This document shows, piece by piece, positions 9,318 through 49,825 of a stretch of 64,000 nt of DNA. Each line of letters starts with the position of its first letter. The first letter of the stretch is position 1. Location of the stretch: assembly GCA_928724745.1 (NCBI GenBank), contig CAKMXJ010000037.1, positions 372,001 to 436,000 of the forward strand. Direction: 5' to 3'. The position numbers and the translations under genes were made by a program. This stretch comes from Anthracocystis setariae (taxonomy: Eukaryota; Basidiomycota; Ustilaginomycetes; Ustilaginales; Ustilaginaceae). The notes beneath the pieces are model-generated. The model saw nothing but the letters and a program-made list of their open reading frames with translations, ran no database searches and was not told the DNA's origin.

Positions 9318-10688
9318 TTCCTTTTTCGGGATGTCATCGTAGTGCTGAATTTTTTCTCGTAGTCAGGAGTACGCTTGTTAGTAGTCAGCCTGTATTGTTC
9401 GTAGTACTTAATGTTATGTTATCGTAGTCACTTATAAGATGTTATCGTACTGCGTGTATGACATTGTGATCCTCGCACACTGTTTTGAGATGGTGTAGCA
9501 CTCATTCTTGATGGCAAAGAACTTGGTTATTGACGAGACTGACTAGCTACATGAACATGCAAACAAGTGTGAGAACGCTCACTCATCGACAAGCTGAGGA
9601 TCGACGGCAATGGGAGAACTCGGAATGAGGCTGTGATTGCGAAGAGCAGTGATGGCGTCGTGTTCAGGGCCGAGATCCTTGCCGGCTTCGGCAACCATGA
9701 TCCAGCGGTTGCATTCGTGAATCCAGCCAATGCACATGTCGGATGTGATGTTCTTGAGCTGGTTCTTGATGACGTTCTTGAGTCCATCTGCTTCGCGGAG
9801 TTCTTGATGGTTGACGATTGGCTTGAGGTAGCCAAACACTCGCTCAGCGATGTTGAACCAAGGAGTGTAAGGCGGAAGGAACAACGGACGGTGACCAGCA
9901 TCTTGAATCGTGTTCGTGACGTTGAGAGAGTGGTGGAAACCGACGTTGTCGAGCACAATGGTCCTGTGCTGTCCTTCGATGCGGGGGAGGAGTTGGTTGA
10001 TGAGGAAGTTGAGGAACGTTTGGGAGTTCCAGGCACCATGCTTGACGAAGCTTGCTAGTAATCCAGTCCTATTGACGGCGACCAAGAGAGAGAGGTTTTG
10101 ACCTCGGTTGTAAGGCCGGTTCTCGACTGTGGCGCGGTTTCCAGCTCGAGCACATCCGACATGTCGAGTTTGTTGGAGATGGAAGCCAGCTTCGTCGAGG
10201 AAGATAGCTTCGTCGAGTAGCTGGCCTTGCGCGCGGAGGTGCTGAATCCAAACTTGACGTTGAGCCTTGGTAGAATTGCTGTTGTGGCGATCGTGTTCGA
10301 CGTTGACGCGCTTGAGAGTGACATGGAGGCAATCGCGTAGCTGATGGGCTACAGAACTCACCGATAAATCGAGACCAGCCTGTTCTTGAAGATGTTCCCG
10401 GATCTCGTGGAGTGTGGCGCAGGGATGCTTGGCGACGAATCCCATGATCAGATCGAGATGTTCTTGATTGACCTTGCTTCCTCGAAAAGCTCCGCCCTTC
10501 TTCCTCTGAGCAGCTGACTCGCCAGTCTGCTCGTACTTGCGGAGGATGCTGTCAACGGTGGTGAGCCTGTAGTCAAATCGATCAGCCACCTCTGTCTTGG
10601 TGAGGCCTTTCTCCAAAATGAACTCGATGATCTTCTCCCTCATCGCATCAGGAACGACGGTTCGCTTCTTTGGTGTGGCAGGCATGAT

Positions 10689-31113: not shown

Positions 31114-32312
31114 AGATTGTAGTCGTGCTCCCTCGCGCCAATTAAGCAATTCCACCTCACAGCCATACAGTCTTTTGCACGCTCGCCGGCCCGTACATCA
31201 CCATTTGTGCAAGAGCTGTCCCGTCCTTCGGGCAAGGTTACACATGCGAACCACTCTTCAGATTGAGACGCCGACGATGCGGTCACACAGCTAGGATGTC
31301 ATCAAATGCCTTTTCATTTCGTTCAGGCGCAATACTTTGGAGTCCGTGAGAGGGTGAGTTGTACGAGCATGACTTTCTACGAGGGCGATCCGAAGCGGTA
31401 ACGTAATTCATGTATTTCCCGGACGTATGTATTTCCCGGACATATGTATTTCCCGGACAAAATAAGTTAGAATTGGCATACTTTGATGTGTGTGACTTGC
31501 ATGATGGCATCAACATACCTTTGCTCACTAACATCAATCTCCACCATGTGCTGAGTCCCCACCACATCTGGTGAAAGTACTCTCATTTTATACAATCAAA
31601 ACCCTGTTTACCCTGCTGTTTCCTGCATTTTGCATGACAATGCTGCAGAACTCCTCCTCCAAGCGCTCAAAGCATGGCTGTATGCAAACAGCGCTTGTTT
31701 GAAATGAGCAGGAGAGCCAAGTACAGCAAGCTCTTGCCAAAATGAATGCTGGACAGCATGCTAGCATTGCTACTGCAGCAGCTGTGCACAATATAGCAAA
31801 ATCTACGCTACACAATTGTCTGTGTGGTGTGCAAGCAAAGAAGGATGCTCACACACACCAACAAGCTCTTTTGCCAGCTGCTGGGTCAGCTCTTGTCAAG
31901 CACATTGAGTGCTGTGCTACTGAAGGTTTCCTGCTCAACCCCAGCAACATGCGTCACTATGCACAGTTGATTGCATGTGGCTCTCCTGGCGGCTCAGGTG
32001 CAATTAAGCTTGGCCATGCCTGGATGCAAGGGTTCCTGCTTTGGCGTCCCTCTCTTTGCTCATGCTGGTCACATTGCCTTGAGAACGCATATGTTTGATC
32101 AACAGACCCTGCAGCATTCAAAGTATGGTTCAGCCATTTGTATGTTGTCATTTGTGAATACAGCATCTCATCTGACAATTTATACAATATGGATGAGACT
32201 GGCTCTATGTTTGGCCAAGCAGCAAAGCAACATGTGCTTGTTCCTGAAGGCAATCCAGCAAGCCGGTTCATAGCACAGCCAGGTAATCGCGAGAGCATTA
32301 CCATTGTGGAGT

Positions 32313-32662: not shown

Positions 32663-32688
32663 GGAGTGTATTGGAAGCAGAGACCAAG

Positions 32689-33162
32689 TGTTACGGCTGG
32701 ACGGATGTTCCCAGTCAGTGCGCCACCGGAGCACTGGCCAAAGGCCGTGTAGGAGAGTGAGCGTGCCGCGCAGCATAGGCCATCAGGAATACGTCGCGCG
32801 GGACGTTCTGTGAATAGAGGGGCGCGCCGCGTGGCGCTCGACACCGGGGCCCACCCCAGGTGTCGCGAGTCGAGGTTGCGCGCAGCCCACGCGTCCCAGG
32901 AGGAGGCGCGCGCCGCGTGGCACGCGTGATGCCTTATAAGGGGGAAGCCGCGCGCCGCCCCCCCGTAGTCAGTCGTCGATTGTATTCTTAGTTACCTTGA
33001 GTAATAGCGAATATCAGACCCAACGGTAGAACCGTTAACCTCAGGATCGTGCCCGGTGACTCTCGTGGCCACCACTCCCGCCACGCGCCCTCAAGCCCAA
33101 GCCTCGCACACCGCGTGCCTCGCCGCACAGTCAGGAGGTTGTCAGACCCTTGGCGCTTAACA
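32689..33162 (+). repeat. 5' LTR of the chromovirus
   Basis: 474 bases, TG...CA ends, no difference seen from the 3' LTR at 40772-41245. It contains a TATA-type box and the likely RNA start. Confidence 0.95.
32934..32984 (+). promoter_or_regulatory. LTR promoter: TATA box and likely RNA 5' end
   Basis: CTTATAAGGG places a TATA-type box at 32934-32939. About 35-40 bases downstream is GTCGATTGTA (32975-32984), the segment complementary to the primer-binding site. In self-primed elements this segment is the RNA 5' end, so transcription probably starts near 32975. Confidence 0.6.
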
Positions 33163-33163
33163 T

Positions 33164-33173
33164 TACAATCGAC
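33164..33173 (+). other. Primer-binding site, self-complementary type
   Basis: TACAATCGAC begins one base after the 5' LTR. It is the exact reverse complement of GTCGATTGTA in the LTR (32975-32984). I see no obvious tRNA-derived TGG start, so priming by the element's own 5' RNA end, as in Tf1, is the simplest reading. Confidence 0.65.
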
Positions 33174-33199
33174 CTACCGTCACCCCGCACGCTCAAACA

Positions 33200-36100
33200 A
33201 TGCTCCCCATGCCGGTGACTCGCAGCCAGGTCGCCAACCAAAACCCCTTGGACGACTGGTCCTCCGCCGGGGAAGATCCTCCCGTGGTCGTCGCACCCTC
33301 CTCGGCGAGCGCGACCACCACCAACTCCCCCGTGCCCGCCCCGGAGGCCGCCGTCCCGCTGATGGCGGTGCTCCAGGAGCAAATGGCCGTCCTGCAGGAA
33401 TTGGTCCTGGAGATGCGCGCGCTGCGCCGCGAGCAAAGAGGCCAACCACCCCTCGCGGCTACCCCCTCCCAGCGCTCGCCCAGGGCCGCCGAAGCGGAGC
33501 CCCCCAGAGAGGCTCCCAACCCGGCGACGGATCGCGAGACATCCGAGCAGCGCTACGAGCGAGCCACCCGCCGGATGGAGCAGGACCCCCACCACGCCCG
33601 CGAGCCGCAGCCTGGGTACCCCCTCCCGGCCCCCCCTCTGGTGCCGTGGATCGCTCCCCTGGACGCGAGCCTCGACAAAGCTCCCAAACTCCGCATCGCT
33701 GCCCCCGACTGGGACGGTAAGCGTGAAGAGCTGGAGGCCTACATTGAGCAGTGCAAGCTGCACTTCGACCTCAACCCGGCACGCTTTGCCACAGACAATC
33801 GCCGGGTCCTCTGGGCCCTGGCACACGTGGGTGGCGCGCCTCGCGACCACCTGCGCAACATGCGCCAGGCGAGCCCCCACAACCCGATCTTCCACGACTG
33901 GCCGCGCTACTGCAGGTCCCTACGCCGCACGTACGGCGATCCTCACCCAGGACATACGGCCAGGATGCAGCTGCAGAAGCTGCGTCAAACCGGGAGCGTC
34001 AGCCGCTTCGCTGCCGAGTTTCAGGCGCTGGCCACGCGAGCCAACGCTACCAACAAGCAGCAGCTGCTCACTACGTTCCAGCTGGGACTCCGTGAGACGT
34101 TCCGGCGTCACCTCCTACATGTGCAGACCCACGACCTGCAGGAGTACATCAACGCTGCTGTACGCACCGAGCAGCAGATGCTCGAAACCGGCCTCGACTC
34201 AGCCGGAACCGCCCACATTCCGGGCCGCGCGACGGGCCGCAATGACGAGCGCCCCCGACCGGAGCCCGGTACGACCCCGACGGGAGCCCCGACTGGTGGG
34301 TTGAACGCCGCCCGCCCCGCCGCCGCCCCGGCCGCCGCGCGCCCAACTTTCCATGCTCCGGCCCGCGCCAACACGGCTTTGCAGAAGCTCACGGAGGACA
34401 CACGCCGCTACCGGCGCGAGAACAACCTGTGCTACACCTGTGGCGAGAAGCACCTCGCGCGCGATTGTCCACAGGCCACACAGGAGCGCGCGCTGCGCGC
34501 TAATGTCATTACGGTTGAGCCCACCACAGGCAACTACCTCCTGCCGCCCGAAGGAGAAGACCCCTCTTCAGACCACGCGCCTACCGAGTGCGACCCCCCG
34601 GCCGAAAGGGATGCCTACGACGAAGCGGTCTACGACCCCACCCTCGACCCCCTGGGTTTTGAAGACGCCCTTTTCCCTCCGCGCGCGGCCGTGGCACAAC
34701 TACTGACTCACCCCGATTGGTTCCCACTCCGCACGCATGTCGCCGCACTGGAACCCATCGCGGAGCCATCTGTTCAGGGCGACCACATCCGTGTGAGTCG
34801 TCACCCCAGCATTCCGGCCTACGAGTGCTGGGTCACCATTGACCACCTGCGGGCGCGCGCTCTCATCGACGGCGGCGCTACCGCGTCCTTCGTGGCGAAG
34901 GATCTCCTCGAGGGCGCGGGCATCGACCTGCACGGGTTGGCCACTCCGGTTAAGACAGCGACGTTCGACGCAGCCTCGGAGCCCATCACTCATACCTGCA
35001 GGGCAGCCGTGGGGCTGGCGGGCCTCACTGTCGCCCCCCACCACCGCTTTTTCGTGGCCCCGCGCATATCGAGCTACGACGTCATCTTAGGCTTGGACTG
35101 GATCGAGGCCACGCGCCCCGTCCTCGACTACGAGGCTCGCGTCATGCAATTTCCCCTGCCCGGGCAAGGCGAGCATGAGCCCGCGACGCCCCCGGCCGGG
35201 GCCATCCCCCCGCTGCCGTTTACCGACAACGCCGCCGAACACTGCGTCCTTGTCCAGGCGCACGCGGACGAGCTCGCCGCCGTACCATCGACTAAGGACA
35301 TCCCCGCTGCGTACCAGGAGTTTGCGGAGGTGTTCAATGAGGCCAACGCCGACATCCTGCCGCGCCCGCGCCCCCAGGACCACGAGATCAACCTCCTGCC
35401 GGGAGCCAAGATCCCACACGGGCCACTATACTCCCTGTCCGCACGCGAGCTCGGTGAGCTCAAGAAGTACATTGACAAGATGCTTGCTATTGGGTTCATT
35501 CGGGAATCGCAGAGCCCCGCCGCGGCCCCTATCATCTTTGTACCTAAGAAAGACGGTCGCCTCCGACCATGCGTCGACTACCGCGCGCTCAACAGCGTGA
35601 CCATCAAAGACAAGTACCCCATACCCCTCATTGCCGAACACTTGGACTGCCTCGCGCAAGCGCGCGTCTTCACCAAACTCGACTTGAAGGGGGCGTACAA
35701 CCTCCTCCGTATCAAGGAGGGGCACGAATGGAAAACGGCATTCCGCACGCGCTACGGTAGTTTCGAATACATGGTAATGCCATTCGGGTTGTGCAACGCG
35801 CCATCTACGTTCCAGCGCTTAATGAACCACATCCTGCACGACCTGCTCGACGTGTCCGTGGTGGTGTACCTGGACGACATCCTCGTGTTCTCCCGCGATC
35901 CCGCCGAGCACGACACACACGTGCGCGAGGTGCTCCGCCGTTTGCGCCATAACCAGCTATATTGCGCTGCCGACAAGTGCGAATTTGGGGTCACCTCGGT
36001 GGAGTTCCTGGGCTACCGAGTCAGCCCGGCCGGCATCTCCATGGACCCGGCGAAGGTCGAGGCCGTAACTACCTGGCCCGCACCCACGACCATTCGTGAC

Positions 36101-38197
36101 ATCCAGGTATTCCTTGGCTTTGCCAACTTCTACCGACGATTCATCAAACACTATTCGCGCGTGGCTCGCCCGCTCACAGACCGCCTCAAGGGCAAAGCAA
36201 GCGGGCGCATCTCCTTAGAGCCCTCCGAGCTGGCCGCATTCGAGACCCTCAAGCGCGCATTCACCACGGCTCCTATCCTGCAACATTTTGACCCAGCGCT
36301 GCCCACAGTCGTGGAAACCGACGCCAGTGACTACGTCGTGGCGGCCGTCCTGTCCCAATGGTACCCAATCAACTCCGCCACCACAACAGCGCCGCGCCCG
36401 AGCACGCACCGTCTCCACCCAGTGGCGTATTGGTCACGGAAGATGCAGCCCGCCGAGCGCAACTACGAGATCCACGATAAGGAGCTCCTGGCCATCGTCG
36501 ACTCCCTTCAAGCGTGGCGCCACTACTTACACGGGCTGCACGCACCGTTCGATGTCCTCACGGACCACCAAGCTCTCCAGTACTTCCAAACCAAGCGCCA
36601 GCTCAATCGCCGTCAGGCCCGTTGGGGGATCGCCCTGGCGGAGTTTGCATTCTCCATCACCTACCGCCCGGGCACAGAGGCCGCGCGGCCGGACGCTCTG
36701 TCCCGCCGATCCGATGGCCACCCAAACCTCGCGGACGCCCAACGCCATGGCGACCCCGCTAATGTAGCTACCCTCTTGCCGCCCTCCCTGTTCATCCACC
36801 CTGAGACAACCGGCGCCGACCCTGTCGATTTCCCGGCCCCGGCCGCGCGCCGCGCGGCTCTCCTCCCGGCGACCGCCCTCCCGGCCACTCCCTCCAGCGC
36901 GGCCGACATCGCCGCCATTCTGTCCCGCTATCATGACCACCCCACCGCGGGGCACCCCGGCGTGGCTACTACCACCGCGCTCGTCCGCCGCCACCACAGC
37001 TGGCCCACCCTCGCGCAAGATGTTGTCACCTACGTCGCCACCTGCTCTGCCTGCAAGCGCGCCAAAGCCCCGCGCCATAAACCTTATGGGCTGCTACTCC
37101 CGTTGGGCGCGCCCGACCGTCCGTTCGGGTCCATCTCCATGGATCACATCGAGGGCCTCCCGCGCTCGCGCGTGGGCGGCACACTCTTCGATTCCATCCT
37201 TGTAGTCGTAGACCGCCTCACCAAGTTTGTGATTTTCATCCCAGCACGGCAATCCGACACCGTTCCCGACCTCGCCCGCATGCTCTTTACAAGTGTGTTT
37301 TGCTATTTTGGATTGCCTGACCAGATTGTCTCCGACCGCGGGCGCACTTTCATCGCCTCCCTCTGGCGAGCAGTGCTGCTACAACTCCAGGTCCGCCCGG
37401 CGCTATCCACCGCCTATCACCCTCAAACCGACGGCCAGACCGAGCGCACCAATCAAACCCTCGAGGTCTTTTTGCGCCTCTACGTCAACTACCAGCAGGA
37501 CGACTGGGCCGCGTGGCTCCCGCACGCGCAGCTCGCCATCAACAACCGCCCCGCTGGCGCTACCGGACTCCCATCCACTCTCCCCCTTTTCGGGTTTACG
37601 CCCAAAACGCTCCCGGGTTCCCCCGCGCTCGCCCCCGACGGTGCGCCACCCTCCCCGGATTGCCTGCAAACGCTCATTGCGTTCTGCCAAGACAACATCG
37701 CGCGTGCCGCGCGCGCCATGGCGAGCCTCGCAAACCGATCCAGGACGGATCGGTCTTACACCGGGGGTGACCAAGTACTGTTGCGCACCAAACACCTGCG
37801 CCAGGACCGACCGTCCAAGAAGCTGTCCAACCCCCTCGCCGGCCCATTCACGGTTCTAGAGGCCGTGGGCCAGCGCGCGTACAGGTTGGACCTGCCGGCA
37901 GGCTCCCGCGTCCACCCGGTGTTCCATGTGAGCTTGCTGGAGCCATACCCGGCGGGCGCGCGCCCCACAGAGCACGCGCCACAAGCCACCAACTTCCAAG
38001 ATGACCGCCAAGACTTCGAGGTGGAACGCCTACTAAAGGCACGAACGAGCAGGCGCGGCCTCGAGTACCAGGTCAAGTGGGCCGGTTATGACAAGCCCAC
38101 CTGGGAGCCGGCGCATCACCTCGCCAATAGCCAAGAGCTGGTGGACGAGTTCCACAGGTCACACCCAGGAGCGCCCACGGGACGAAGGCCGGCCTGA
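33200..38197 (+). CDS. Gag-Pol polyprotein with C-terminal chromodomain
   Basis: A single frame of 1665 residues, with no shift between gag and pol. In order: a Gag capsid-like region (about 165-330); a CCHC zinc knuckle CYTCGEKHLARDC (about 413-425); an aspartic protease with LIDGGATASFV (about 553, Gly instead of the commoner Ser/Thr after Asp); reverse transcriptase from about 735 with VVVYLDDILVFSR (about 889); and RNase H with ETDASDYVV (about 1037). Integrase follows with its HHCC zinc part (about 1250-1290) and a D-D-E core that includes SMDHIEGL, VSDRGRTFI and TDGQTERTNQ. A chromodomain covers about 1605-1655 (FEVERLLKARTSRRGLEYQV, then KWAGYDKPTWEP). All catalytic residues I can check are present. 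The chromodomain may steer integration to modified histones. Confidence 0.96.
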   Translation: MLPMPVTRSQVANQNPLDDWSSAGEDPPVVVAPSSASATTTNSPVPAPEAAVPLMAVLQEQMAVLQELVLEMRALRREQRGQPPLAATPSQRSPRAAEAEPPREAPNPATDRETSEQRYERATRRMEQDPHHAREPQPGYPLPAPPLVPWIAPLDASLDKAPKLRIAAPDWDGKREELEAYIEQCKLHFDLNPARFATDNRRVLWALAHVGGAPRDHLRNMRQASPHNPIFHDWPRYCRSLRRTYGDPHPGHTARMQLQKLRQTGSVSRFAAEFQALATRANATNKQQLLTTFQLGLRETFRRHLLHVQTHDLQEYINAAVRTEQQMLETGLDSAGTAHIPGRATGRNDERPRPEPGTTPTGAPTGGLNAARPAAAPAAARPTFHAPARANTALQKLTEDTRRYRRENNLCYTCGEKHLARDCPQATQERALRANVITVEPTTGNYLLPPEGEDPSSDHAPTECDPPAERDAYDEAVYDPTLDPLGFEDALFPPRAAVAQLLTHPDWFPLRTHVAALEPIAEPSVQGDHIRVSRHPSIPAYECWVTIDHLRARALIDGGATASFVAKDLLEGAGIDLHGLATPVKTATFDAASEPITHTCRAAVGLAGLTVAPHHRFFVAPRISSYDVILGLDWIEATRPVLDYEARVMQFPLPGQGEHEPATPPAGAIPPLPFTDNAAEHCVLVQAHADELAAVPSTKDIPAAYQEFAEVFNEANADILPRPRPQDHEINLLPGAKIPHGPLYSLSARELGELKKYIDKMLAIGFIRESQSPAAAPIIFVPKKDGRLRPCVDYRALNSVTIKDKYPIPLIAEHLDCLAQARVFTKLDLKGAYNLLRIKEGHEWKTAFRTRYGSFEYMVMPFGLCNAPSTFQRLMNHILHDLLDVSVVVYLDDILVFSRDPAEHDTHVREVLRRLRHNQLYCAADKCEFGVTSVEFLGYRVSPAGISMDPAKVEAVTTWPAPTTIRDIQVFLGFANFYRRFIKHYSRVARPLTDRLKGKASGRISLEPSELAAFETLKRAFTTAPILQHFDPALPTVVETDASDYVVAAVLSQWYPINSATTTAPRPSTHRLHPVAYWSRKMQPAERNYEIHDKELLAIVDSLQAWRHYLHGLHAPFDVLTDHQALQYFQTKRQLNRRQARWGIALAEFAFSITYRPGTEAARPDALSRRSDGHPNLADAQRHGDPANVATLLPPSLFIHPETTGADPVDFPAPAARRAALLPATALPATPSSAADIAAILSRYHDHPTAGHPGVATTTALVRRHHSWPTLAQDVVTYVATCSACKRAKAPRHKPYGLLLPLGAPDRPFGSISMDHIEGLPRSRVGGTLFDSILVVVDRLTKFVIFIPARQSDTVPDLARMLFTSVFCYFGLPDQIVSDRGRTFIASLWRAVLLQLQVRPALSTAYHPQTDGQTERTNQTLEVFLRLYVNYQQDDWAAWLPHAQLAINNRPAGATGLPSTLPLFGFTPKTLPGSPALAPDGAPPSPDCLQTLIAFCQDNIARAARAMASLANRSRTDRSYTGGDQVLLRTKHLRQDRPSKKLSNPLAGPFTVLEAVGQRAYRLDLPAGSRVHPVFHVSLLEPYPAGARPTEHAPQATNFQDDRQDFEVERLLKARTSRRGLEYQVKWAGYDKPTWEPAHHLANSQELVDEFHRSHPGAPTGRRPA

Positions 38198-38629
38198 CGG
38201 TGGCCGGGGGCAAGCGGCAACCTCCTAATGCCGCGCGCTCCCTCAGGGCGAGCTCCTAACCCGCCTCGCGTCGCCCTGCTCAGAGCGCGCTCGCCACCCG
38301 CGTTGGCGCGCGTCCCCCCAGGACGAGCTCCCAGCCCGCCTCGCGTCGCCGTACTCACGGCGCGCTCGTCACCCTTACCGGCGTGCCCGCCGCCCTCACA
38401 CAGCCCCCCACTACCGCGCGGCATACCAGAGGTCCCGGAACCCCGCGCGCCACAGCACTCACGGGACCTCGCCACGCTCAATCCTCACTTTACCTCAGAC
38501 ACGGACGCAATGGCACAAGCACAACAACACGGGGAACATTTTGGATTTCAAGGCCGACTACGGGGTTACCGGAGCCGGCCAACAGACATTGGAGTAACAG
38601 AGCAAGGGGCGCGCGGTACAACTAGAGAC
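38198..38629. other. Spacer between pol and the antisense gene, with imperfect duplication
   Basis: A GC-rich spacer. A segment beginning CGAGCTCC is present twice about 85 bases apart (near 38249 and 38334), followed each time by CGCCTCGCGTCGCC. It may include the transcription end of the antisense gene. Confidence 0.5.
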
Positions 38630-40493
38630 TCAGGCCGGGCCCGCGCCTTCTCCACCATCAGGGAGTGCTTGCCGGCGCGGACGCTTGGGCGTGCGAGGAG
38701 CCCCCGCCGCCAAGGGAGACGAGGGCGACGCGCGGCGCGCGGGCACCACAGCAACAGGAGAGCCAGGGGCCGGGTGCGGGGCGCCAGCCGGCGGCGCGTG
38801 GTCCAAGAGGCGCCCAACACGCTCGCGAGCGGCGGCAATGTGGGACGCGCTGTCCGAGTCCGACGAGTCCGAGGCAACCAGATACGCGGGACCGCTCACC
38901 CGCCAGTAGTCTACGAGCTCGTGCAGCGTCGTTCGCAGGGCAGCGGGCGCAGACTCCAGCATCATCAGGTGCCGCTTCATGGTGGACGACTGCACGTCCA
39001 TACCCTCCAGCAGGCCAGCGGCGGCACACTGCCGAATCGTAACCTTGAGGTCGTCGAGCGCGCGCTCGATAGCCTCCGTGCTGCGCTGGAGATGCACCGC
39101 CTGTTTCCGGTACGAAGCCAATGGCGCCGGCGGATTGGACACCAAGGACGACGAACCCCCAGCGTCTTCGTCACGGTTGCGCGGCGCCGCGCGAACGGTA
39201 GCGCTCACCCCCGGAAGGGCGCCGAGCGGCTTACGCGCAGCAGCGCGGCGGGGGCGGGGGGCCTTGGGAGAGCCCAAAGGGCGGGGACGGTCGGCAGCAC
39301 GGCCTCGGGTTGTACGGGTAGCGCGGGGACTGGGGGTGGCGGGCTCGGGCCCCCCCTCCACAGACTCACCATCGCTCTCACTGCTCTCGTTGTCGTCGCT
39401 GTTGTCATCCCGGGTTCGACGGCTGGCACGCGGCCAGCGACGCCGGGCGTAGCGCTGTGCAACAGCGGCGCGCTCGGCCTCCATGTAAGGCGGGAGCGCA
39501 CCGACCGGCACCATCGACGGGGTCAGGGCGGGGTTGGGACGGTGGCCCAGGACGCGCATCCAGAGGTAGGCCTCCATCAACCACGGGCCCTCAAGTCGAC
39601 CCCCCAGCCACGGGATCCGGCCGCGCCAGTCGCACTTACGCTTGGTGCCGCACGCGCTGCAGGGTGTCGGCATGCCCTCGAAGGCCTGGGCGATCTCGTC
39701 GGGAATCCTAGCGCCGGCGTCGCGCTTAACCGTCACCGCACCGCGATCGGGATCCACGTGGCAGGCCGCGGCGTCGCAACCCTTGTGCTCGCACGCGTAG
39801 CAGGGCGCCATGAACTCCTCACAGTCGGGATCGCTGAGCACCAGGGCGGCCTTGATGAGACGTACGACAAAGGGGACATCACCGATAGGCTGGTCCTTGC
39901 GCTCGCGCATCAAGGAGTCGACGATGGGACAGCTCCGCTCGCCCCACGGCAGGACCTCCCACACCTGGTAACGGAATTGGCTCTGGTCAGCCTGATCGTT
40001 GGTAGGAGAAGGCGCTGGATCGCGAGCCTCAGGGGAAGGCTGCCCGCGAGCCTCGGGGGAAGGAGCGCCGTCGCAGGCCTGGGGCGGCGGCGAAGAATGG
40101 ATTTCGATTACCGTAGCGCTCGTGGTTGCGGGTGCTGTCAGACAGTGGAACCCCGCCGGGAAAGTCAGAGTCAGTATGCGTGCCGCGTCAACACACCAAG
40201 GAGAGAGATCACTCACCGGTCTTTTCGGTTGGAGAGGCTGGGGTTGGCGGGGGCCCGGTCACGGCTACCGCCGCGGGCGAGGCAGTGGTGCTACTGGCCG
40301 CCCGGGGATCGGGGACCACGGCCAAGATGGCGCGGAGGGTGGACGCAGCCTCGGCCTCAGCGCGCGTCTTCTCGCTCGAGGGCTCGTCGGCTAGCCAGGC
40401 ACAGGAACGGGAAATTCAAAGTTACGCGTCAGTCAACACCCTACCGCCGGCGCCGTACCTCAGAACGTGCCCATACTTACTGTTGGGGGTCAT
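38630..40493 (-). CDS. Antisense, intron-containing accessory gene inside the chromovirus
   Basis: Three exons on the strand opposite to gag-pol: 40493-40481, 40390-40217 and 40134-38630, giving 563 residues. Introns are 90 and 82 bases with GTAAGT/GGCTAG and GTGAGT/GACAG ends and CTGAC- or GTAAC-type branch-like motifs, and both junctions keep phase 1. Residues 1-130 are Ala/Pro/Thr-rich. A cysteine cluster follows: CYACEHKGCDAAAC near residue 173 and CSACGTKRKC near 222, possibly zinc-binding. Next come a conserved-looking block (WMRVLGHRPNP), an acidic run (DDNSDDNESSESDGES, about 310), basic Arg/Pro-rich sequence and a helical stretch near 420-480 (STEAIERALDDLKVTIRQ). I do not recognise the family. 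The 3' LTR lies about 280 bases upstream and could supply a promoter. The sense strand also has a long frame here, but its content is Arg/Gly-rich and shadow-like. Confidence 0.7.
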
Positions 40494-40756
40494 GGCCGTT
40501 CTGTTTTCTTGATGACCCGGCGTGGGGGTCGAGGGGTAGTCAGATGGTGGAGGGAAGGAGAGATGTAGGCCCCCGTAAGTCAGCCATTGCGAGCCGCAAC
40601 ATCCCAAATGAGGCTGAGTCCCATTGCGCAACGCTTTGTTGTGCGCCCGGTGATCGACGCGTGCGCCCGCGCCACGCCCCACAAATGGAAAATTCTGGGG
40701 ACCCTCTTCGCCCACCACGGCCGGTGGGCCTGCGCGCTCCGGAGTGCGCGCACCCC

Positions 40757-40771
40757 GAGGCGGGGGGGTAA
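40757..40771 (+). other. Polypurine tract of the chromovirus
   Basis: GAGGCGGGGGGGTAA directly abuts the 3' LTR. This is the expected position for plus-strand DNA priming. Confidence 0.75.
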
Positions 40772-41245
40772 TGTTACGGCTGGACGGATGTTCCCAGTCA
40801 GTGCGCCACCGGAGCACTGGCCAAAGGCCGTGTAGGAGAGTGAGCGTGCCGCGCAGCATAGGCCATCAGGAATACGTCGCGCGGGACGTTCTGTGAATAG
40901 AGGGGCGCGCCGCGTGGCGCTCGACACCGGGGCCCACCCCAGGTGTCGCGAGTCGAGGTTGCGCGCAGCCCACGCGTCCCAGGAGGAGGCGCGCGCCGCG
41001 TGGCACGCGTGATGCCTTATAAGGGGGAAGCCGCGCGCCGCCCCCCCGTAGTCAGTCGTCGATTGTATTCTTAGTTACCTTGAGTAATAGCGAATATCAG
41101 ACCCAACGGTAGAACCGTTAACCTCAGGATCGTGCCCGGTGACTCTCGTGGCCACCACTCCCGCCACGCGCCCTCAAGCCCAAGCCTCGCACACCGCGTG
41201 CCTCGCCGCACAGTCAGGAGGTTGTCAGACCCTTGGCGCTTAACA
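40772..41245 (+). repeat. 3' LTR of the chromovirus
   Basis: 474 bases, the same as the 5' LTR as far as I can read, followed by the CCAAG target duplication. Confidence 0.95.
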
Positions 41246-41390
41246 CCAAGTTCTGCCGCCCCTGATCATCATGCGATGTTATCACAGTTGGAGAGCAGCA
41301 GCAAATGGATGATATTCTGGCAGAATGGTGCTTCTCAAGAGGTCCCACTGGCTACAACAACATCAAACTTGCCAAGCTATGGGCTGAGAA

Positions 41391-41896
41391 TGTTAAGCGC
41401 CAAGGGTCTGACAACCTCCTGACTGTGCGGCGAGGCATGCGGTGTGCAAGGCTTGGGCTTGAGAGCGCGTGGCGGGAGTGGTGGCCACGAGAGTCACCGG
41501 GCACAATCCTGAGGTTAACGGTTCTACCGTTGGGTCTGATATTCGCTATTACTCAAGGTAACTAAGAATACAATCGACGATGGACTACAGGAGGGCGGCG
41601 CGCGGCTTCCCCCTTATAAGGCATCATGCGTGCCACGCGGCGCGCGCCCCCTCCTGGGACGTGTGGGCCGCGCGCGACCTCAACTCGCAACACCTGGGGT
41701 GGACCCCTGTGTCGAGCACTACACGGCGCGCTCCCGTCTTCGGGGGGCGACGCGCGGCGCGCCCCTCCATTCACAGAAGCGTCCCGCGCGGCGTGCTCCT
41801 AATGGCCTATGCTGCGCGGCACGCTCACTCTCCTACACGGCCTTTGGCCAGTGTTCCGGTGGCGCACTGGCTGGGAACATCTGTCCAGTTGTAACA
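41391..41896 (-). repeat. Solo LTR of the same chromovirus family, reversed
   Basis: The reverse complement starts TGTTACAACTGGACAG and ends GGCGCTTAACA, as in the intact LTR, and is flanked by GAGAA on both sides (41386-41390 and 41897-41901). It is about 32 bases longer because of an extra GC-rich segment after the first third. It differs by many substitutions, mostly C/T and G/A, yet keeps the TATA box and the GTCGATTGTA segment. It interrupts the pogo transposase. Confidence 0.9.
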
Positions 41897-43165
41897 GAGA
41901 ACATCTTTGACTGGAACACAAGGCCTTCCTTGCCATCAGAATATTGCTTGCTCATCATTGATGGTCACAAGATACATACTTCATCCAAGTTCCTTGATGT
42001 TCTGTGGCAACAATGCATTGTACCTCTGTGTTCACCTCCTCACTGTACACATGTAATGCAACCACTGGATGTCTCAATCTTTGGGCCTCTGACTGCTGCA
42101 TATTGGCGTCTCATTAGCTTGCACCGCACATGGCCTCTGCCAGGATTGACAAGACACAATTTGGTTCCTGCTATGCCAAGGCATGGGCACAGACACTAAG
42201 CTTGGCAGCAGCAAGGAAGGCATTCCAGGACACCAGAATCACAGTCAACCCAAGCGCAAGGAAGCTCTTAGATGGGCTAGCTGGCTCTTCCGCTGCAGGA
42301 ACTCAAGCACAGGTCTCTTTCCCTTTTAAGTTGGGTTGTATTGCAAAGGGCTAAGGGCTAGAGGTATGCAGACGCACCTCCTGAGATCTCACAGCCGCCG
42401 GTACAAGCAAACACCAACACACAGCAGCCTCTAGCTGCAATGGAGGACCTCCTCAAGGAGTACAAGAATAAGGACAATCCAAGGTCTGCAAGATCCATCA
42501 AGCATTCACTTGTCCAAGCATCTCAGGCAGCAAGGCAGGAAACACAGATGGCAAAGGCCAAAAACACTGTATTGCAGGCTCAGGAGGATCAGCGCAAAGC
42601 AGTAGCAAGGACAAGGGTACCAAGGATTGCTGTAGGTGATTGCATGTACCTCAGCAAGGACAGAATGATCACCAGGGAGCAAGCAGAACAAGAGTTGATT
42701 GCAAAAGAAGGTGACATCTTGGAGCTACAGGAGCAAAATTGACAGAGGCACCAGCACCGTGCCGCAGCAGACAGCCACAAAGGCAACATTGACAACAACA
42801 AAGAGCTCTTGTTGCCATCTGCCATTGGTACTACCATCCCAGCCAGCATACTTGATGCTCTCAGCAATGTAGGAACGCTCAGCAACATCAACAATGGTGA
42901 TGACCCTCAGCCCAACTTCTTCAACACAGTTCCTCATGCCAGCAGTTCTCATCATGGTATGTAGCGTGAAGTCAATTCAGCATGTAGTCTAGGACCTTGT
43001 GATCAGGTAATGCTATTCATGTCATTGCTCACCTTCACAAACAAGCAAGCTTGCCATCACAAAGAGTGCTACCACCAAAGAATTTTAATTCGGATAATCG
43101 TCCGGGAAATACATACGTCCGGTAAATACATGAATTACGTTATTTAGAGCAACGAGAGTGTCCCT

Positions 43166-46100
43166 TTATTTGGCCATCTCTTCATGCGCATCGAGAAGAG
43201 CAGCAGCACTCCAGGCCTGTGTCGCGCATGAGTCGGGGCAGTGGGCGCCATCAGCGTTGGTCAATTCCGGAAGACCTGCCCAAGGCGAGGAGCGAATGTG
43301 CTTTCGGTGTTCCAGCATCATGGTGTTGATGCGGTGATTCATCGTCGAACGCTCGATGCCTGCCTTTTGGCCAAAGATGGCAACAGCGCGCAAGTAGTAT
43401 CCGCGCAGCCAAACCCACTCAGGTCCGTTGTGGTAGTTCCAACCACACGAGGTCGAAGGATCGTCGGTCTCGCGCTGGTCGTAGTTGGGGCGGTAGTTCC
43501 AGTCGGAGGGATCCAGAGTTTTCATGCCTAGAGGACCTACAAGGATTTCCTTCGCCTTGTTGAGTGCGCTGATCGCATGCTCGGGCCTGAAAAGTTCTGG
43601 GGCAACACACATGGCGATCGGGAAGTTCGAGCGGAATTGGTAGTCTGCCCACTCGCGACCCTTCGAAGATCCATACACATCCTTGTAGATGCCACGACGG
43701 TTGACGAGCTTAGGGTCAAGGTCATAAGAGCCGTCTTCACTAGCATCGAGGGGGATGTAGTAAGCACGCTCAAAGGAGTTCTGCAACAGATCAGCCCATT
43801 GTTGATATGTGACCAGCGTGTTTTCACCCTTGATCTTGGCTTCAACTCCTTTGCCCTCCTTCCAGACGCCCTTCTTCTCCAGGCCAACGATCCAGGTCAG
43901 GGTGCTCTTCAGCAAAGCAGTGATCTCGATTGCGGCTCCGTTTCGTGGCGAGCCAGGTACGCCTTTGTTACCAGCTTTGGCGGACGAGCCATTCTTGTCC
44001 TGCCATGTTCCGCAGTTGTGCTCGTTACCTCCAAAGATGATGCCATTCTCCCAGTTGACATCAACGTCGATGTTGAAGCCTTCCGGATGCATGTCGTTGT
44101 CGATAGCTGGGCCGGCGTTGTGTTCGCGGAAGTGAATTCCGGAAGCGTGGCGCTGAAGAATTTCCTGGATGAGCTCGGCCACCGTGCTCTTATGGGCGAA
44201 CGCCTTGGGATCATCCCAAGGCACCCACTCATCGTCGAGCGGGAAACGCCTCGCAACCTTTTCGGAAAGGATGGCTTCGCCGTTGGGAACCATCTTAGTG
44301 TAGTCTTGAACGTTCTGAGCAAAGAACCAAGGGCCGTCTCGGCAGTTGTAACGTGGTGTTTTTCCAGAGTCAAGCAGGTTCGGGATCATACCATGCTTGA
44401 GAGTTGAGCCGAAGGCGAGGATGTGTTCACGTGCCGCTTCGAACATTCCGGTCACGAGGTAGAGACCACGCAGAGAGATGAAGACGTCACGGCCCCACAG
44501 CCTTGCCCACGAAGCTGCGAAGAAGGGCAAGCCAGCGGCCATGGACGCTACCTGCTTGTCCGGCCAAAGAGATGCTGACTTGACAAGGCCGTTCATCTGC
44601 ACAGAGCACAAGGCCAATGCCTTAATGAAGTCGTGGCCATCCTTGATGATGGGCGACATGCGAGAGAGCACCTTTCGGACGGCAGCATCGTATCCCGTTT
44701 TGATAACCAGGGCAAAGTACTTCGGACGCATGAAGTTTGGCACAGTGTTCTTGATCAACTCGAAGCGCTCCGAGAGCCACTTCGCAACTTCAGCCAACCG
44801 AGGCAGCACATTCGTCTGCTTGACCAGTCTCTGATGGATATAGTCTAGAGCCCAGGTGCCGTCTCGAAGATGCTCGCAGAGAGGGTGACCGAGGTCGTTG
44901 GATTCAATGATCGGACGCAAGACGGACATCCAGCCCTCGAGACCACAGTAAACGAGAGGCTGGCACTGCGGGATCGTGTAGACTCCATCATTGCCTTCTG
45001 TGACATCCTTCTCCTCGCCATCGGCACGGTAGAGAAGAGCGTTAAGGTCCACGAGATCGAGATCGACCATGGCCTGATCTGCGCCAGACGAGCAGCGAGA
45101 GTCGATGTCTCCGTCGAGATTCTCCATCTCCGTGGCAAACAGCATCACACTGCCAGGGGGGAAAAAGTCGGGCACCACGACTTCCGAGTATCGCAGGTGA
45201 CCATCTTCCTCCTTGGTACGGATCTCTGGCTCGGCAAGATCGATCAACTTCGAAGGAAGGCCATCGAGATACTGCTTGTCTTGAACAACTTCAGTGCTGG
45301 TCACTTCCAGCGACTTGCCAAGGATGAACGAAACGCGAGTCCGGTCGAATTTGAAAGGACCGGCTTGCCCACGGTCCTTCGAGCCCTTGTGGAATGCGGT
45401 GTGAGCAAGGCAGACATAACCTCGGTGCGTCTGGGGATGTACACGATGCATCACGAGGTAATCGTTTTCCTGGTGAACGTGTCCTTCAGAATATCCATTG
45501 CGAACCATCTCAACGTGAAGGTGGTTGACGACGCGCTTGACGGCGCCGATGCCGCTTTCTTCGGGATTTCGCACGGGCCGGTACAGTCGAGTTTCCTGCA
45601 CAACGTCCAGCGTCTTGGGGTACAGATCATCAACGCCTTTTGTACTACCGATCGCCGACCAAGAGAAGGCCACCAGAGCACCCATGGTGATGGCATCCTC
45701 GGTGGTCCGCTTCATTGTAGGCGTCTCGTTGTCGTGCGTGACATCCATGAACAGGGCATGAGGACTGGACCCACTGAGCTGCTTCACGAGGCAATCAGAG
45801 TTGGTGAGACCGGCTTCGGGTAAAGTGATCTTGGCGGCGGTGGTGAGGCAGGCACTGTCCACCGAACCGATGGCCTTGTTAACGCCGAAGCGGTACAGAA
45901 GACGGCTCTCCTCCTGAGGATCGTGACCGTTCTCCATCTCGCGGATCAACGAGTTGATACCGAGACGGCTGACAAAGTGCACATCCATCTCTGCACTGCC
46001 AGTGAAGAGTTCGGCACAGACGTAGAGGTTGGGATTGATCCTCCTGGCAATGTCGAGGAAGTGTTCTCCCACGTGAACAGGGGTCGAGTGGCAGTTGTCA

Positions 46101-47881
46101 ATACGAACGGCGTCAAAGTGAGCTGCGAGAAGCTTTGTGTATTCCTCCATGTGCTTCCAGAGATAAGGCGAATCTCGAGGGCCCGAACCATATCGGAGCT
46201 TGACACAGTCTCCCCAAACGATAAGCTCTCGCCTAAGATAGACACGCGACTTGCTCGAGGCAAAGTCCTCGAGAGGGTTGGCTGCCCAGATCCAGCCATT
46301 ATTGGCGAGAGACAGCTCCTTAGGATCCCTGCCTGACGCACTAGGGTGCTTGGGATCCAGGCGGGTGAAGTATGGCTCGAAGAACGGACTTTGTTGCGAG
46401 ATCTTGCCGAGCTTCGGACCGTTCGGGTCAATGCGGGTGAACTTGACGCGGCCTTCGAGATTGCTGAGGATGGCTTTGACATCATCATCATAGATAGCAT
46501 AGAAGGAGGCGTTGACTTCGTCTACGACTTTGGAGAAGAAGTCAGTGGCCTGTTGGGCATCGGTGAAACCGTATTCAGACTGCAGGATCCGAACAGCCTC
46601 CGTGGCATCAATGGCGGTGCAGAATCGAGCCGAGAGCGCCATCTCGTTGTTGACAGCTGAAGCTCGAAGCTTGCTGGCGGCCTCCTTGATGATCGCTTCC
46701 GTGATCTGAGAGCCTGAACTGGAGCCGCTCTCGTTCTTTTGCTTCTGAAAAGCAGATCTGAAGCCTTCGTTAGCCGCCTTGACATCGATCGCATAGTATT
46801 GCCAAAGATTCAAAGGAGCAAGGACATGCTGTTTGACAGCCTCCATGAGCTTTGCGACGTCAGCGTCCGATTTGAGCTCGTCTGGAATGCCGTAATCGTG
46901 CAAACGTTTATTGAGATCGAACAGGGCCTTTTCGAGCTCGTCAGCAGGCACAAGATGTGGAGAGTTAGCAGGACTGTAAGCGGCGTCAGGGTGTTCGTTG
47001 AGCCACTCGCTGTTGTGGGCGGTATGGTTCCAAACAACATCGCTCATGCTGAGGATACCGTGCTTTGACTTCATGTCTCGGAGCACGCTGCTGAGTTGCT
47101 TGACACGTTCAGCTTGCTGTCTGGGACCCTGAAGTTTCTTGGGGAAGAGATCGTGAGAGAAATCATGCTGATCGCCGATAGAGTAAGGGCTGTTGCTAGC
47201 CCCGCGCACATTGAGTGGGGGGAAATGGATCATGTTGTAACCGGCATCGCGAGCCGAGTCCAGGTGGACTTGCCAGTCTGAGAGAGGCCCAGCCCATTTG
47301 GAGATCAGGGTCTGGAGGACGATGCCATCGAGTGCCAAGAAATCAGTCTCGCTTGTCACCGCTCCTCCGCCCTCTTTCGACGAGAGGGCTTTACGGGCCT
47401 CGCTGAGGATGGGTTTCCGGACAGCTACCTGGAGGATGGGGTCGACGTTGAAATAGCCACTTTTGCCCCTCTTGCGCTCCGGTGCTTGATCTGAACGCAT
47501 AAAGAGGTCGTTAAGGTCTTGAGCCTCTTTGTCAGTGGTGTATTCGACGAAGAACTCGAACACGCCAGCGGTCCTGATAAGAAGATCGACGGTGTTTGAA
47601 CGAGAAACAGACGATGAGAACGGCGTCTTGTCGAACGATGTGCGTTCGAACTTGTCCCTCTTGTTCGAGTAGTTGGTCAGCAGGTGAGCTTCCCGAGAGG
47701 CCATGGACCCCGACTCGATGGAAAAGCGGAGCACGTAGGGCTGAACGGGTGCAGGGAGCCGGATGTACGATCTTTGCTCGTTGGGACTGCCATCCTGTTC
47801 GAGAACGAGTTCGTAGACTTTGACTGCCTCGCCACGACCGTGGTGACCATTCCCGTTGGTCGTCACGTTGGTTGGCGACAT
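43166..47881 (-). CDS. GDB1: Glycogen debranching enzyme
   Basis: A 1571-residue bifunctional enzyme, full length for the family. The N-terminal 4-alpha-glucanotransferase part has the GH13-type nucleophile segment VRIDNCHSTPVHV (about residue 590) and the acid/base segment CAELFTGS (about 620). The C-terminal amylo-alpha-1,6-glucosidase (GH133) part has LWGRDVFISLRGLY (about 1130) and the conserved DVNWENGIIFGGNEHNCGTW. The enzyme moves maltotriosyl units from a branch and then hydrolyses the alpha-1,6 glucose in cytosolic glycogen breakdown. The first ATG (MSPTNVTTNG) is at 47881; five codons upstream the frame is open only through a GTG. There is a single exon. Its stop codon is 25 bases from the end of the nested pogo island, so its native 3' end has probably been replaced or moved. 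Confidence 0.97.
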   Translation of the reverse strand: MSPTNVTTNGNGHHGRGEAVKVYELVLEQDGSPNEQRSYIRLPAPVQPYVLRFSIESGSMASREAHLLTNYSNKRDKFERTSFDKTPFSSSVSRSNTVDLLIRTAGVFEFFVEYTTDKEAQDLNDLFMRSDQAPERKRGKSGYFNVDPILQVAVRKPILSEARKALSSKEGGGAVTSETDFLALDGIVLQTLISKWAGPLSDWQVHLDSARDAGYNMIHFPPLNVRGASNSPYSIGDQHDFSHDLFPKKLQGPRQQAERVKQLSSVLRDMKSKHGILSMSDVVWNHTAHNSEWLNEHPDAAYSPANSPHLVPADELEKALFDLNKRLHDYGIPDELKSDADVAKLMEAVKQHVLAPLNLWQYYAIDVKAANEGFRSAFQKQKNESGSSSGSQITEAIIKEAASKLRASAVNNEMALSARFCTAIDATEAVRILQSEYGFTDAQQATDFFSKVVDEVNASFYAIYDDDVKAILSNLEGRVKFTRIDPNGPKLGKISQQSPFFEPYFTRLDPKHPSASGRDPKELSLANNGWIWAANPLEDFASSKSRVYLRRELIVWGDCVKLRYGSGPRDSPYLWKHMEEYTKLLAAHFDAVRIDNCHSTPVHVGEHFLDIARRINPNLYVCAELFTGSAEMDVHFVSRLGINSLIREMENGHDPQEESRLLYRFGVNKAIGSVDSACLTTAAKITLPEAGLTNSDCLVKQLSGSSPHALFMDVTHDNETPTMKRTTEDAITMGALVAFSWSAIGSTKGVDDLYPKTLDVVQETRLYRPVRNPEESGIGAVKRVVNHLHVEMVRNGYSEGHVHQENDYLVMHRVHPQTHRGYVCLAHTAFHKGSKDRGQAGPFKFDRTRVSFILGKSLEVTSTEVVQDKQYLDGLPSKLIDLAEPEIRTKEEDGHLRYSEVVVPDFFPPGSVMLFATEMENLDGDIDSRCSSGADQAMVDLDLVDLNALLYRADGEEKDVTEGNDGVYTIPQCQPLVYCGLEGWMSVLRPIIESNDLGHPLCEHLRDGTWALDYIHQRLVKQTNVLPRLAEVAKWLSERFELIKNTVPNFMRPKYFALVIKTGYDAAVRKVLSRMSPIIKDGHDFIKALALCSVQMNGLVKSASLWPDKQVASMAAGLPFFAASWARLWGRDVFISLRGLYLVTGMFEAAREHILAFGSTLKHGMIPNLLDSGKTPRYNCRDGPWFFAQNVQDYTKMVPNGEAILSEKVARRFPLDDEWVPWDDPKAFAHKSTVAELIQEILQRHASGIHFREHNAGPAIDNDMHPEGFNIDVDVNWENGIIFGGNEHNCGTWQDKNGSSAKAGNKGVPGSPRNGAAIEITALLKSTLTWIVGLEKKGVWKEGKGVEAKIKGENTLVTYQQWADLLQNSFERAYYIPLDASEDGSYDLDPKLVNRRGIYKDVYGSSKGREWADYQFRSNFPIAMCVAPELFRPEHAISALNKAKEILVGPLGMKTLDPSDWNYRPNYDQRETDDPSTSCGWNYHNGPEWVWLRGYYLRAVAIFGQKAGIERSTMNHRINTMMLEHRKHIRSSPWAGLPELTNADGAHCPDSCATQAWSAAALLDAHEEMAK

Positions 47882-49825
47882 GGTGAGCGTCAACACCGAG
47901 ATACAACGTTTTGGAGGCGTATCAGAGGAAGCGTCGAAATCAGCACACTAGCTTCGAGAAGAGGTGTCCAACGATTTTATGGGAAGGGGAGGGAAGGAAG
48001 GAGCTGAAATTGATAGCGAGAGAAGATACCGCTTTGGTGTGCGAGCATACAACGCTGGAGGTGAGACAGGGATGACGGGTGCAGTGGTTGCAACGGTAAT
48101 TCCGAGGCATCAGGCTGACAGGCTCGCTTCGTGTTTCTCGACATGACCCGCGATTGCTCTGTCTAGTCATGAGTAGAGTATGATCTTCGCGCGAAGATCC
48201 GAAATCGATAGCAGCGGTGGATTGCTACAGTAGTGACAATTGCAAACTGCATGCGCGCTGGGGCCTCCACACGGACGGATTTTCTCTCTGCACACCAAAT
48301 TCCCCCCACATCGGTCACCTCAGGAACAGAACATCACATCACATCACATCACTTCACATCACATCGCATCATATCAGTCATGCTCATGCTTGCTCTCTTG
48401 TCCAGACATGCACAAGGCTCAGCACCCGGCTGCGCCTGTCTCTTGAGATGGTCGGGAAGCTAGACTTGAGACGATCAAGAATCTCAGCAGCTCGTCCCCG
48501 TCCCAGAAGCTCGCGGCGGTTCTGCTTTGAACTTCCTTCTTCTTTGAGACGCAAATCTGAATCGCCAAATGCCTGCTGTGATGGTCTGGCTCGAAAAATC
48601 GGAATTCAAATTCGGTCGATGCGGTCTTCGTCATCACACATGGCCATGGTTTCCAACTTTCCTGTTGAGTCCAGCATCGTTGGTAATACTTAAAGTAATA
48701 CTCTGCTGTATGGTAGATACGACAAGTAGTTGCTCGACGCAATCGGCGCTGCTCGACGTATTCTAGTCGTGTCGATTGAATCCGGACTGTAGCAACACAG
48801 TCTCAGCCCTAGCCAAGCCCAGCCCCGCCTCTCGCAAGCTCTTTGTATGTGGCGATCCCGGATCTTGATTGGACAGCTTCAGCCCAGAATCGATTGGCAT
48901 GTCCCGCACGCCTCAATAGGCTCCTAATCCCCTCATCGGTCCACCGTACCTTCACATTGGGCGAGTGTGTTGCCGTGTGCTGGCTGATGTTGCCTACCTT
49001 CTTTGCGTCGATATTCGCTGTGCTGTCAGCCGTGAATTGGGACGACCCTTTGTTCCAACGTTGAAGTAATCACAGTCGCTCCTTTCGGCTGTCAGTTCCA
49101 CGTGCACCCTGTGAACTCCCTCGCGTGCAGTTTGGGGTCAAGGACCCCCATTCAGGGGCGCACGGTCTAGTCAGCCGCCTTCTATGTTGACAAAGGCATT
49201 GAATGACCCTACTCTCGCAATCGTCCCTCATGCTTTGTGGCTTGTGACGTGGGAAATACGCTGCTTGGCTCAGTGACGCTCCTGAACACCAACGTACTTG
49301 TGACTGTACCTTGATGCGTGATTCTTTGTCGAACGCGGCTGCAAACACCTTCCCATCACATGCCTGATCTTGCTCGGGGCTTGTTTGTTCCTGCACATAC
49401 ATGATAGTCATATCGCCAAAAAAAAAAAAAAAAAAAAAGAGTAAAACACGTACCGCAGCCACCCGCCGCTTCCACCACAGCGAAGCCAGCCCCGATCGGA
49501 TGGCTGCGACTGGGTGGCTTCGGTACGGCAGCCACCCTCACCCGTATCGACTGGCGGTAGCACGGTTCTCACGGCATCCTGGCAACAGACGTGCAGGGTG
49601 CATCCGCACCCATCAAAATCGTACACTAGCATGATCAGAACCTCGTATAAATTACTTTTTGGCGCCGTCGAGGCGGAGTTGCAAGCGTGGAGCATGGAAA
49701 GAAGACCCAGACGTGAAGGAAGTGCCGATGCCAAAGTAAATCTCGATGTTAGAGAACGTGAGAGACTCTGGTCGTTGAAGCGAGTCGCGCAAACGTTGAA
49801 AACAAGATCGAAAGTGTTGGAAATT
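47882..49825. other. Gene-free region upstream of GDB1
   Basis: 1.9 kb without a supportable gene. It holds a TCACA/TCACATCACA repeat (about 48330-48372) and a poly-A run of about 20 bases (49419-49438). Short frames lack family features. The first few hundred bases presumably hold the GDB1 promoter. Confidence 0.5.

Follow-up and report, generated by a model that had tools for sequence, protein, structure and literature searches.

Based on the evidence outlined below, the minus strand of a chromovirus in the fungus Anthracocystis setariae carries a gene that is almost certainly real, that is, both spliced and selected. The chromovirus, a Ty3/gypsy element with a C-terminal chromodomain and flanking long terminal repeats (LTRs), occupies positions 32689-41245 of the window, by which we mean the whole 64,000-nucleotide (nt) stretch analyzed (assembly GCA_928724745.1, contig CAKMXJ010000037.1, positions 372,001 to 436,000 of the forward strand), and the gene, with three exons and 563 codons, lies between pol and the 3' LTR. 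Its splice signals are conserved among copies of the element, its product is under purifying selection, and two further chromovirus lineages carry antisense genes downstream of pol; every copy and lineage compared comes from one genome, that of the window. Taken as a whole, the explanation that we favor, and rate as reasonably probable, is that a spliced accessory gene on the minus strand encodes a nuclear regulator.

The element and its antisense gene

The 1665-codon gag-pol frame matches the Pfam families Retrotrans_gag, RVT_1, RT_RNaseH, rve, and Chromo (the last with an expectation value, E, of 1.9e-10), and its insertion is recent, since the two LTRs are identical and a CCAAG target duplication flanks them. 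From the pol stop (38197) to the start of the 3' LTR (40772) there are 2574 bases, and in this interval the antisense gene is found on the minus strand, the position that characterizes additional antisense open reading frames (ORFs). An earlier note on this DNA, made from its letters alone, had described a recently inserted chromovirus with a 563-codon antisense gene; the identity of the element, the recency of its insertion, and the coordinates and strand of the gene are all correct as given there. The features are as follows.

32684-32688 and 41246-41250: target duplication CCAAG, flanking the chromovirus
32689..33162, plus strand: 5' LTR, 474 bp, TGTTACGG...TTAACA, identical to the 3' LTR at 474/474 positions
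33200..38197, plus strand: gag-pol ORF, 1665 codons, with gag, protease, reverse transcriptase (RT), RNase H, integrase, and chromodomain
38228..40771, plus strand: mirror frame, not a gene, 847 codons open opposite the antisense gene
38630-40493, minus strand: antisense gene, three exons, 1692 nt, equal to 563 codons plus stop
40481..40493, minus strand: exon 1, ATG at 40493, 13 nt, ending in phase 1
40391..40480, minus strand: intron 1, GTAAGT...CTGAC...TAG, 90 nt
40217..40390, minus strand: exon 2, 174 nt
40135..40216, minus strand: intron 2, GTGAGT...CTGAC...CAG, 82 nt
38630..40134, minus strand: exon 3, 1505 nt including TGA, with cysteine cluster, acidic run, helix-like stretch, and basic tail
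39380..39895, minus strand: core (residues 80-251 as read from exon 3) that can be aligned with lineage 2
40494..40771, minus strand: leader and possible antisense promoter region, 278 bp from the gene start to the 3' LTR, assigned by position
40772..41245, plus strand: 3' LTR, 474 bp

Each of the two introns holds a branch-like CTGAC site, and the frame that opens at the ATG would, if left unspliced, stop at a TAA within intron 1.

Conservation of the splice signals

A DNA search of the genome returned 23 matches, 18 of which are near-full copies (L001-L018) that were aligned and that fall into four clades: A (L001, L002), B (L003-L006), C (L007-L013), and D (L014-L018). Copies of one clade are not independent, and we place weight on the differences among the four clades and among the three lineages. 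All 18 copies keep the ATG, the two GTRAGT donors, and the two AG acceptors, with donors that vary between GTA and GTG without loss and a first acceptor that reads TAG in two clades and CAG in the other two; the TGA stop is kept in 17, L006 being truncated at that point. Indels fixed within clades measure 1 nt in the introns and -15 and +27 nt in the exons. All five copies of clade D, as well as L013, have a 1-nt indel in intron 1; clade C and L016 have 1-nt indels in intron 2, and clade C also has a 15-nt deletion in exon 2. The two introns and the exon phases of the earlier note are thus supported by signals kept throughout, and its expectation that the introns are not removed during retrotransposition fits the retention of both in every near-full copy.

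The gene is open to its end in 11 of the 18 near-full copies, so that an antisense frame is present and conserved in most of the family. Three individual copies deserve mention. L010 (G000:C2:1511056-1515967), one of the 11, stays open despite a stretch that is read shifted, with three 1-nt insertions; L021, a short fragment, keeps both introns; and L019 (G000:C5:676000-685900) is a lineage-1 copy split by several kilobases, probably through a later insertion into the antisense gene.

Which strand is selected

Openness alone does not decide which strand codes, because the mirror frame is also long and mostly stop-free: its exon-3 part has no stop in 10 of the 11 copies with an open antisense gene. 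The pattern of substitution is decisive. In 15 pairs among six copies chosen from the 11 open ones, the ratio of nonsynonymous to synonymous substitution rates (dN/dS; Nei-Gojobori with Jukes-Cantor correction) is 0.14-0.29 for the antisense frame and 0.12-0.28 for exon 3 by itself, and the bootstrap 95% intervals computed for four pairs lie within 0.11-0.31. Between L001 and L014, the antisense gene differs at 42 first, 33 second, and 139 third codon positions. The exon-3 part of the mirror frame gives 0.81-2.16 over the same number of pairs (bootstrap, one pair, 1.19-2.58), with changes mostly at its first codon position. For comparison, the final 350-360 codons of pol, compared among eight copies with L016 omitted owing to a gap, give 0.04-0.17 (25 of 28 pairs, those with a synonymous rate, dS, above 0.02). 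Purifying selection thus acts clearly on the antisense protein, though less strongly than on pol. The earlier note had held that copies in other genomes without purifying selection, or with only the sense frame retained, would count against it; among the copies of this one genome the outcome is the opposite.

Antisense genes in two further lineages

A protein search of the genome with exon 3 returned 68 matches; with 12 set aside as second pieces or small fragments, 20 belong to lineage 1, the lineage of the window element, and 36 form a second group, lineage 2, at 33-45% identity. The pol of lineage 2 is 70-76% identical to that of the window in the part searched and 62% identical over a longer alignment. 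In the pol search 49 of 224 candidates were scored, and the list of pols is thus a lower bound; for 17 of the 20 lineage-1 matches and 25 of the 36 lineage-2 matches, a pol is listed no more than 3 kb away on the 3' side, and in every such case (17/17 and 25/25) it is on the opposite strand. In L023 and L024, paired direct repeats, which we take to be LTRs, enclose pol and the antisense gene; no such pair was seen in the fetched piece of L025.

The lineage-2 gene is a detectable homologue of the lineage-1 gene by sequence comparison: the cores are about 34% identical, with E down to 2.2e-15, and a profile comparison gives E 5.6e-14 at 36% identity over 156 columns. Its architecture is simpler: in 12 of the 13 copies fetched, the ATG opens an exon 1 of 7 nt, an intron of 75-79 nt follows, and the rest is modeled as one long exon without a second intron; the 5' part is missing from L025. 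The intron has a GT donor, CTGAC, and a YAG acceptor, and it shares phase 1 with the first intron of lineage 1. The dN/dS of lineage 2 is 0.14-0.28 (26 of 28 pairs from 8 copies, two pairs with dS <=0.03 being left out), and that of its mirror is 1.32-1.93; L028, L036, and L037, which have an early stop, and L034, which was unmatched by the core-motif filter, were not included. In all 12 of these copies, a TATATAA box lies 87-90 nt upstream of the ATG; it plausibly belongs to a promoter of the gene's own and would predict a transcript start about 55-65 nt ahead of the ATG. No such box was noticed by eye in the 278 bp upstream of the window gene.

Lineage 3 is a separate RT group with a strong chromodomain and a pol about 42% identical to that of the window, and it too has an antisense gene downstream of pol. 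A search with its exon 2 gave 27 matches, which were compared with 29 RT matches picked from 150: an RT lies within 3.2 kb in 22 of the 27, on the opposite strand in all 22. Nine of the 11 fetched copies have a start reading MAP and one phase-2 intron of 68-75 nt, the removal of which completes a CX2CX6C motif; L043 lacks the 5' part. The dN/dS is 0.17-0.32 (34 of 36 pairs), and that of the mirror is 0.91-1.65. Independent support for the splice junction comes from L041 (G000:C28:680498-682598), a diverged and intronless homologue of the lineage-3 gene (profile E 6.9e-13), which reads through the intron position in a continuous frame (LDVP|CF against LGVPCF). L041 also has repeated RRSxRL motifs near its N terminus. 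In L027, one copy of a fourth, distant RT lineage, no antisense frame of >=150 codons was found downstream of the pol match, in a piece in which no LTR pair was found and the end of the element is not delimited.

In total, the intron number is two in lineage 1, one in lineage 2, one in lineage 3, and zero in L041.

The protein

The cysteine cluster, acidic run, and helical region that had been read from the product in the earlier note all fall in exon 3, and a basic tail can be added to them. The seven cysteines of lineage 1 are spaced C-x2-C-x4-C-x4-C ... C-x2-C-x5-C, those of lineage 2 C-x2-C-x10-C ... C-x2-C-x6-C, and those of lineage 3 C-x2-C-x6-C-x19-C-x2-C-x6-C. The core holds this CxxC...CxxC cluster together with a stretch reading CDWxGR...LMEAYL...RPNP. 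By eye, basic stretches near the C termini of the lineage-1 and lineage-2 proteins (PKRPRR in that of the window element, PRKKRR in that of L023) look like nuclear localization signals, and together with the cysteine clusters they point to a nucleic-acid-binding nuclear protein. Searches of a database of about 5.8 billion proteins gave no match to exon 3 or to a lineage-2 protein (best 7990 candidates scored for each), nor to residues 50-240 of exon 3 (1166 candidates scored); with the fungal share of that database uncertain, this blank is weak evidence that the family is rare.

Proposed mechanism and alternatives

We propose a mechanism in which the chromovirus carries an accessory gene on its minus strand, in the interval between pol and the 3' LTR. 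Transcription of this gene would probably start from a promoter that lies within the 3' LTR or just internal to it. After removal of the introns by the host spliceosome, translation would yield a protein of 563 residues, in which a zinc-type cluster of seven cysteines is joined by an acidic run, a stretch resembling a helix, and a basic tail at the C terminus. The introns are present in the genomic RNA only as their complement, and for that reason they would pass unspliced through retrotransposition and be inherited by new copies. We posit that the protein most likely has a nuclear role, binding DNA or chromatin and regulating either transcription or integration of the element itself, on the model of HBZ of human T-cell lymphotropic virus (HTLV) or of the role suspected for the antisense proteins of the plant elements Grande and Retand. 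That the protein is a nuclear regulator we regard as close to an even call. More tentatively still, we speculate that such a gene is old and a standard component, the third gene, in a large group of fungal chromoviruses; it would encode an HBZ-like cysteine-cluster regulator, bear introns that the minus strand keeps safe from removal, evolve much faster than pol, and determine when or where the element is copied. That the safety of the introns is itself the reason for the antisense placement, as the earlier note suggested, is unsupported: intron number differs among the lineages (two, one, one, and zero in one relative), and the gene is antisense regardless.

Several observations weigh against the mechanism proposed here. 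No Pfam family matches the antisense proteins of any lineage at E<=1, NCBIfam has no match to the window proteins, the PDB has no convincing one (entries at E 0.27-0.95 are taken as chance), and an AlphaFold prediction of the core made with no alignment reached a mean predicted local distance difference test score of 45 and was not used. Exons 1 and 2 by themselves are under looser constraint (dN/dS 0.27-0.51, six pairs). Frameshifts, stops, or truncation break the gene in 7 of the 18 near-full copies, as is expected for a transposon family, and assembly errors may contribute. A listed pol is lacking near 3 of the 20 lineage-1 and 11 of the 36 lineage-2 matches, and an RT is lacking near 5 of the 27 lineage-3 matches; in the fetched lineage-3 piece L026, no LTR pair was found and the LTRs are not delimited. 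Finally, the profile comparison of lineage 3 with lineages 1 and 2 is nonsignificant, so that a single common origin is unsupported and the only likeness we claim is that of cysteine spacing.

How do other explanations fare? It is unlikely, in our estimation, that the protein instead acts post-transcriptionally, as an accessory factor of integration or of the preintegration complex (targeting, nuclear import). Such a role would be compatible with purifying selection in three chromovirus lineages, the basic tails could serve as import signals, and the same option has been raised for plant antisense genes (PMC7264820). However, a product of a separate minus-strand transcript would lie outside the Gag-Pol polyprotein, and Pfam detects no integrase-related domain in the antisense proteins.

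Could the transcript rather than the protein be the functional product, through double-stranded RNA or transcriptional interference, with the frame as a by-product? Antisense transcripts that overlap retroelements may indeed regulate them (PMC7264820), but dN/dS values well under 1, exon indels that preserve the frame, and the distribution of changes among codon positions all bespeak selection on the protein, so that any role of the RNA would be additional; as a replacement for the protein, this reading is improbable. More improbable again is the recent capture of a host gene with its introns, without any long-standing part in the chromovirus. The ordinary intron signals do resemble those of host-gene introns, but the gene is present in all four clades, lineage 2 has a homologue about 34% identical to it in the same relation to pol, and no copy clearly outside the elements has been established, with the pol list as a lower bound. 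The idea that the sense frame 38228-40771 is the real gene and the antisense frame its mirror is rejected with near certainty, since its 847 open plus-strand codons, mostly stop-free across copies as they are, have a dN/dS of 0.81-2.16, change at first positions that are antisense third positions, and have no Pfam match.

Surroundings of the element in the window

Within the element, a pair of 71-bp direct repeats, 83% alike and with starts 75 bp apart, occupies 38229-38374, between the end of pol and the antisense gene. Outside it, 43-nt inverted repeats that are 98% complementary (31399-31441 and 43100-43142) bracket the chromovirus and probably mark the two ends of a DNA transposon; remnants resembling a transposase were recognized between them by eye only. 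A solo LTR at 41391-41896, related to the element's LTR and in the opposite orientation, has GAGAA at each side, so that the same host sequence apparently received a second insertion, independent of the first. The nested elements adjoin a glycogen debranching enzyme gene (43166-47896; PDB match, residues 184-1571). Farther off, two transposase-like frames at 9579-10685 and 12079-13122 (helix-turn-helix plus DDE type, by eye) suggest that other mobile elements lie nearby.

Comparison with known systems

Antisense ORFs in the interval between pol and the 3' LTR are described for the plant elements Grande, RIRE2, and Retand and for the fungal element Boty (PMC7264820, PMC11963269, PMC8365987, PMC4227169, PMC5987419). 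Grande gene23, the RIRE2 gene, and Retand TRP28 share with the gene described here both place and strand relation and are likewise found in most copies, and a nuclear or DNA-binding role is suspected for the plant products (PMC7264820, PMC11963269). There are also differences. Retand belongs to a non-chromovirus lineage (PMC11963269), unlike the window element; the TRP28 domain PF04195 was not found by Pfam in the antisense proteins here; and the introns and the cysteine cluster set the present genes apart from the plant ORFs. The main text of the Retand paper (PMC11963269) contains no word beginning with "intron."

The earlier note knew of no intron-bearing antisense gene in a fungal chromovirus. 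Antisense extra genes in fungal Ty3/gypsy elements are not new in themselves, since brtn, the antisense extra gene of Botrytis Boty, has been published (cited in PMC7264820, PMC8365987, and PMC4227169). Its host, Botrytis cinerea, is an ascomycete, the likeness to brtn is one of description in the citing papers only, and brtn is absent from the last B05.10 annotation according to PMC8365987. The part of the claim that concerns introns has held so far: we found no published intron-bearing antisense gene in a fungal LTR element, which is no proof of absence in print, and in a survey of fungal LTR elements (PMC3248453) the terms "intron" and "opposite strand" are unmatched in the main text.

Functional models come from retroviruses. 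HBZ of HTLV-1 and APH-2 of HTLV-2 are products of spliced antisense transcripts that regulate sense transcription in the nucleus and repress transcription driven by Tax (PMC3185765). Like theirs, the gene described here is antisense and near the 3' LTR, and as in the main form of HBZ the start codon is in exon 1; from strong comparative splice-site evidence, its transcript would be spliced as well. Exon 1 of HBZ lies within the 3' LTR, whereas the start codon here lies 278 bp inside the 3' LTR and two introns follow; HBZ is a retroviral basic leucine zipper (bZIP) factor, whereas no bZIP match was found here with Pfam, and APH-2 also lacks a bZIP (PMC3185765). The ORF3 genes of LTR elements in bdelloid rotifers are a further parallel, as extra ORFs with spliced messages, but their products (env, DEDDy, GDSL, and others) are not of the antisense-protein family found here (PMC5408684). 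As in the Zn2Cys6 family (PF00172), the cysteines fall in two CxxC-containing halves; in contrast to it, there is no Pfam match, the lineage-1 spacing differs, and the linkers are longer than the canonical ones.

As far as the literature searched extends, the following are new: the introns, the cysteine-cluster family, the presence of antisense genes in three chromovirus lineages within a single fungal genome, and the selection measured here. It has been known for years that LTR retrotransposons can carry antisense extra genes, yet their function is not settled, and this one genome amounts to a natural experiment, with three lineages, dozens of copies, dN/dS values that contrast the strands, and introns with signals that mark the coding strand. 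It suggests that annotation pipelines may take members of a transposon protein family for host genes or for noise. Such genes cannot lose introns through reverse transcription of packaged RNA, and the series of two, one, one, and zero opens a route to studying intron gain and loss. Can retroviral-style antisense regulation occur in fungi? The gene described here makes this a testable case.
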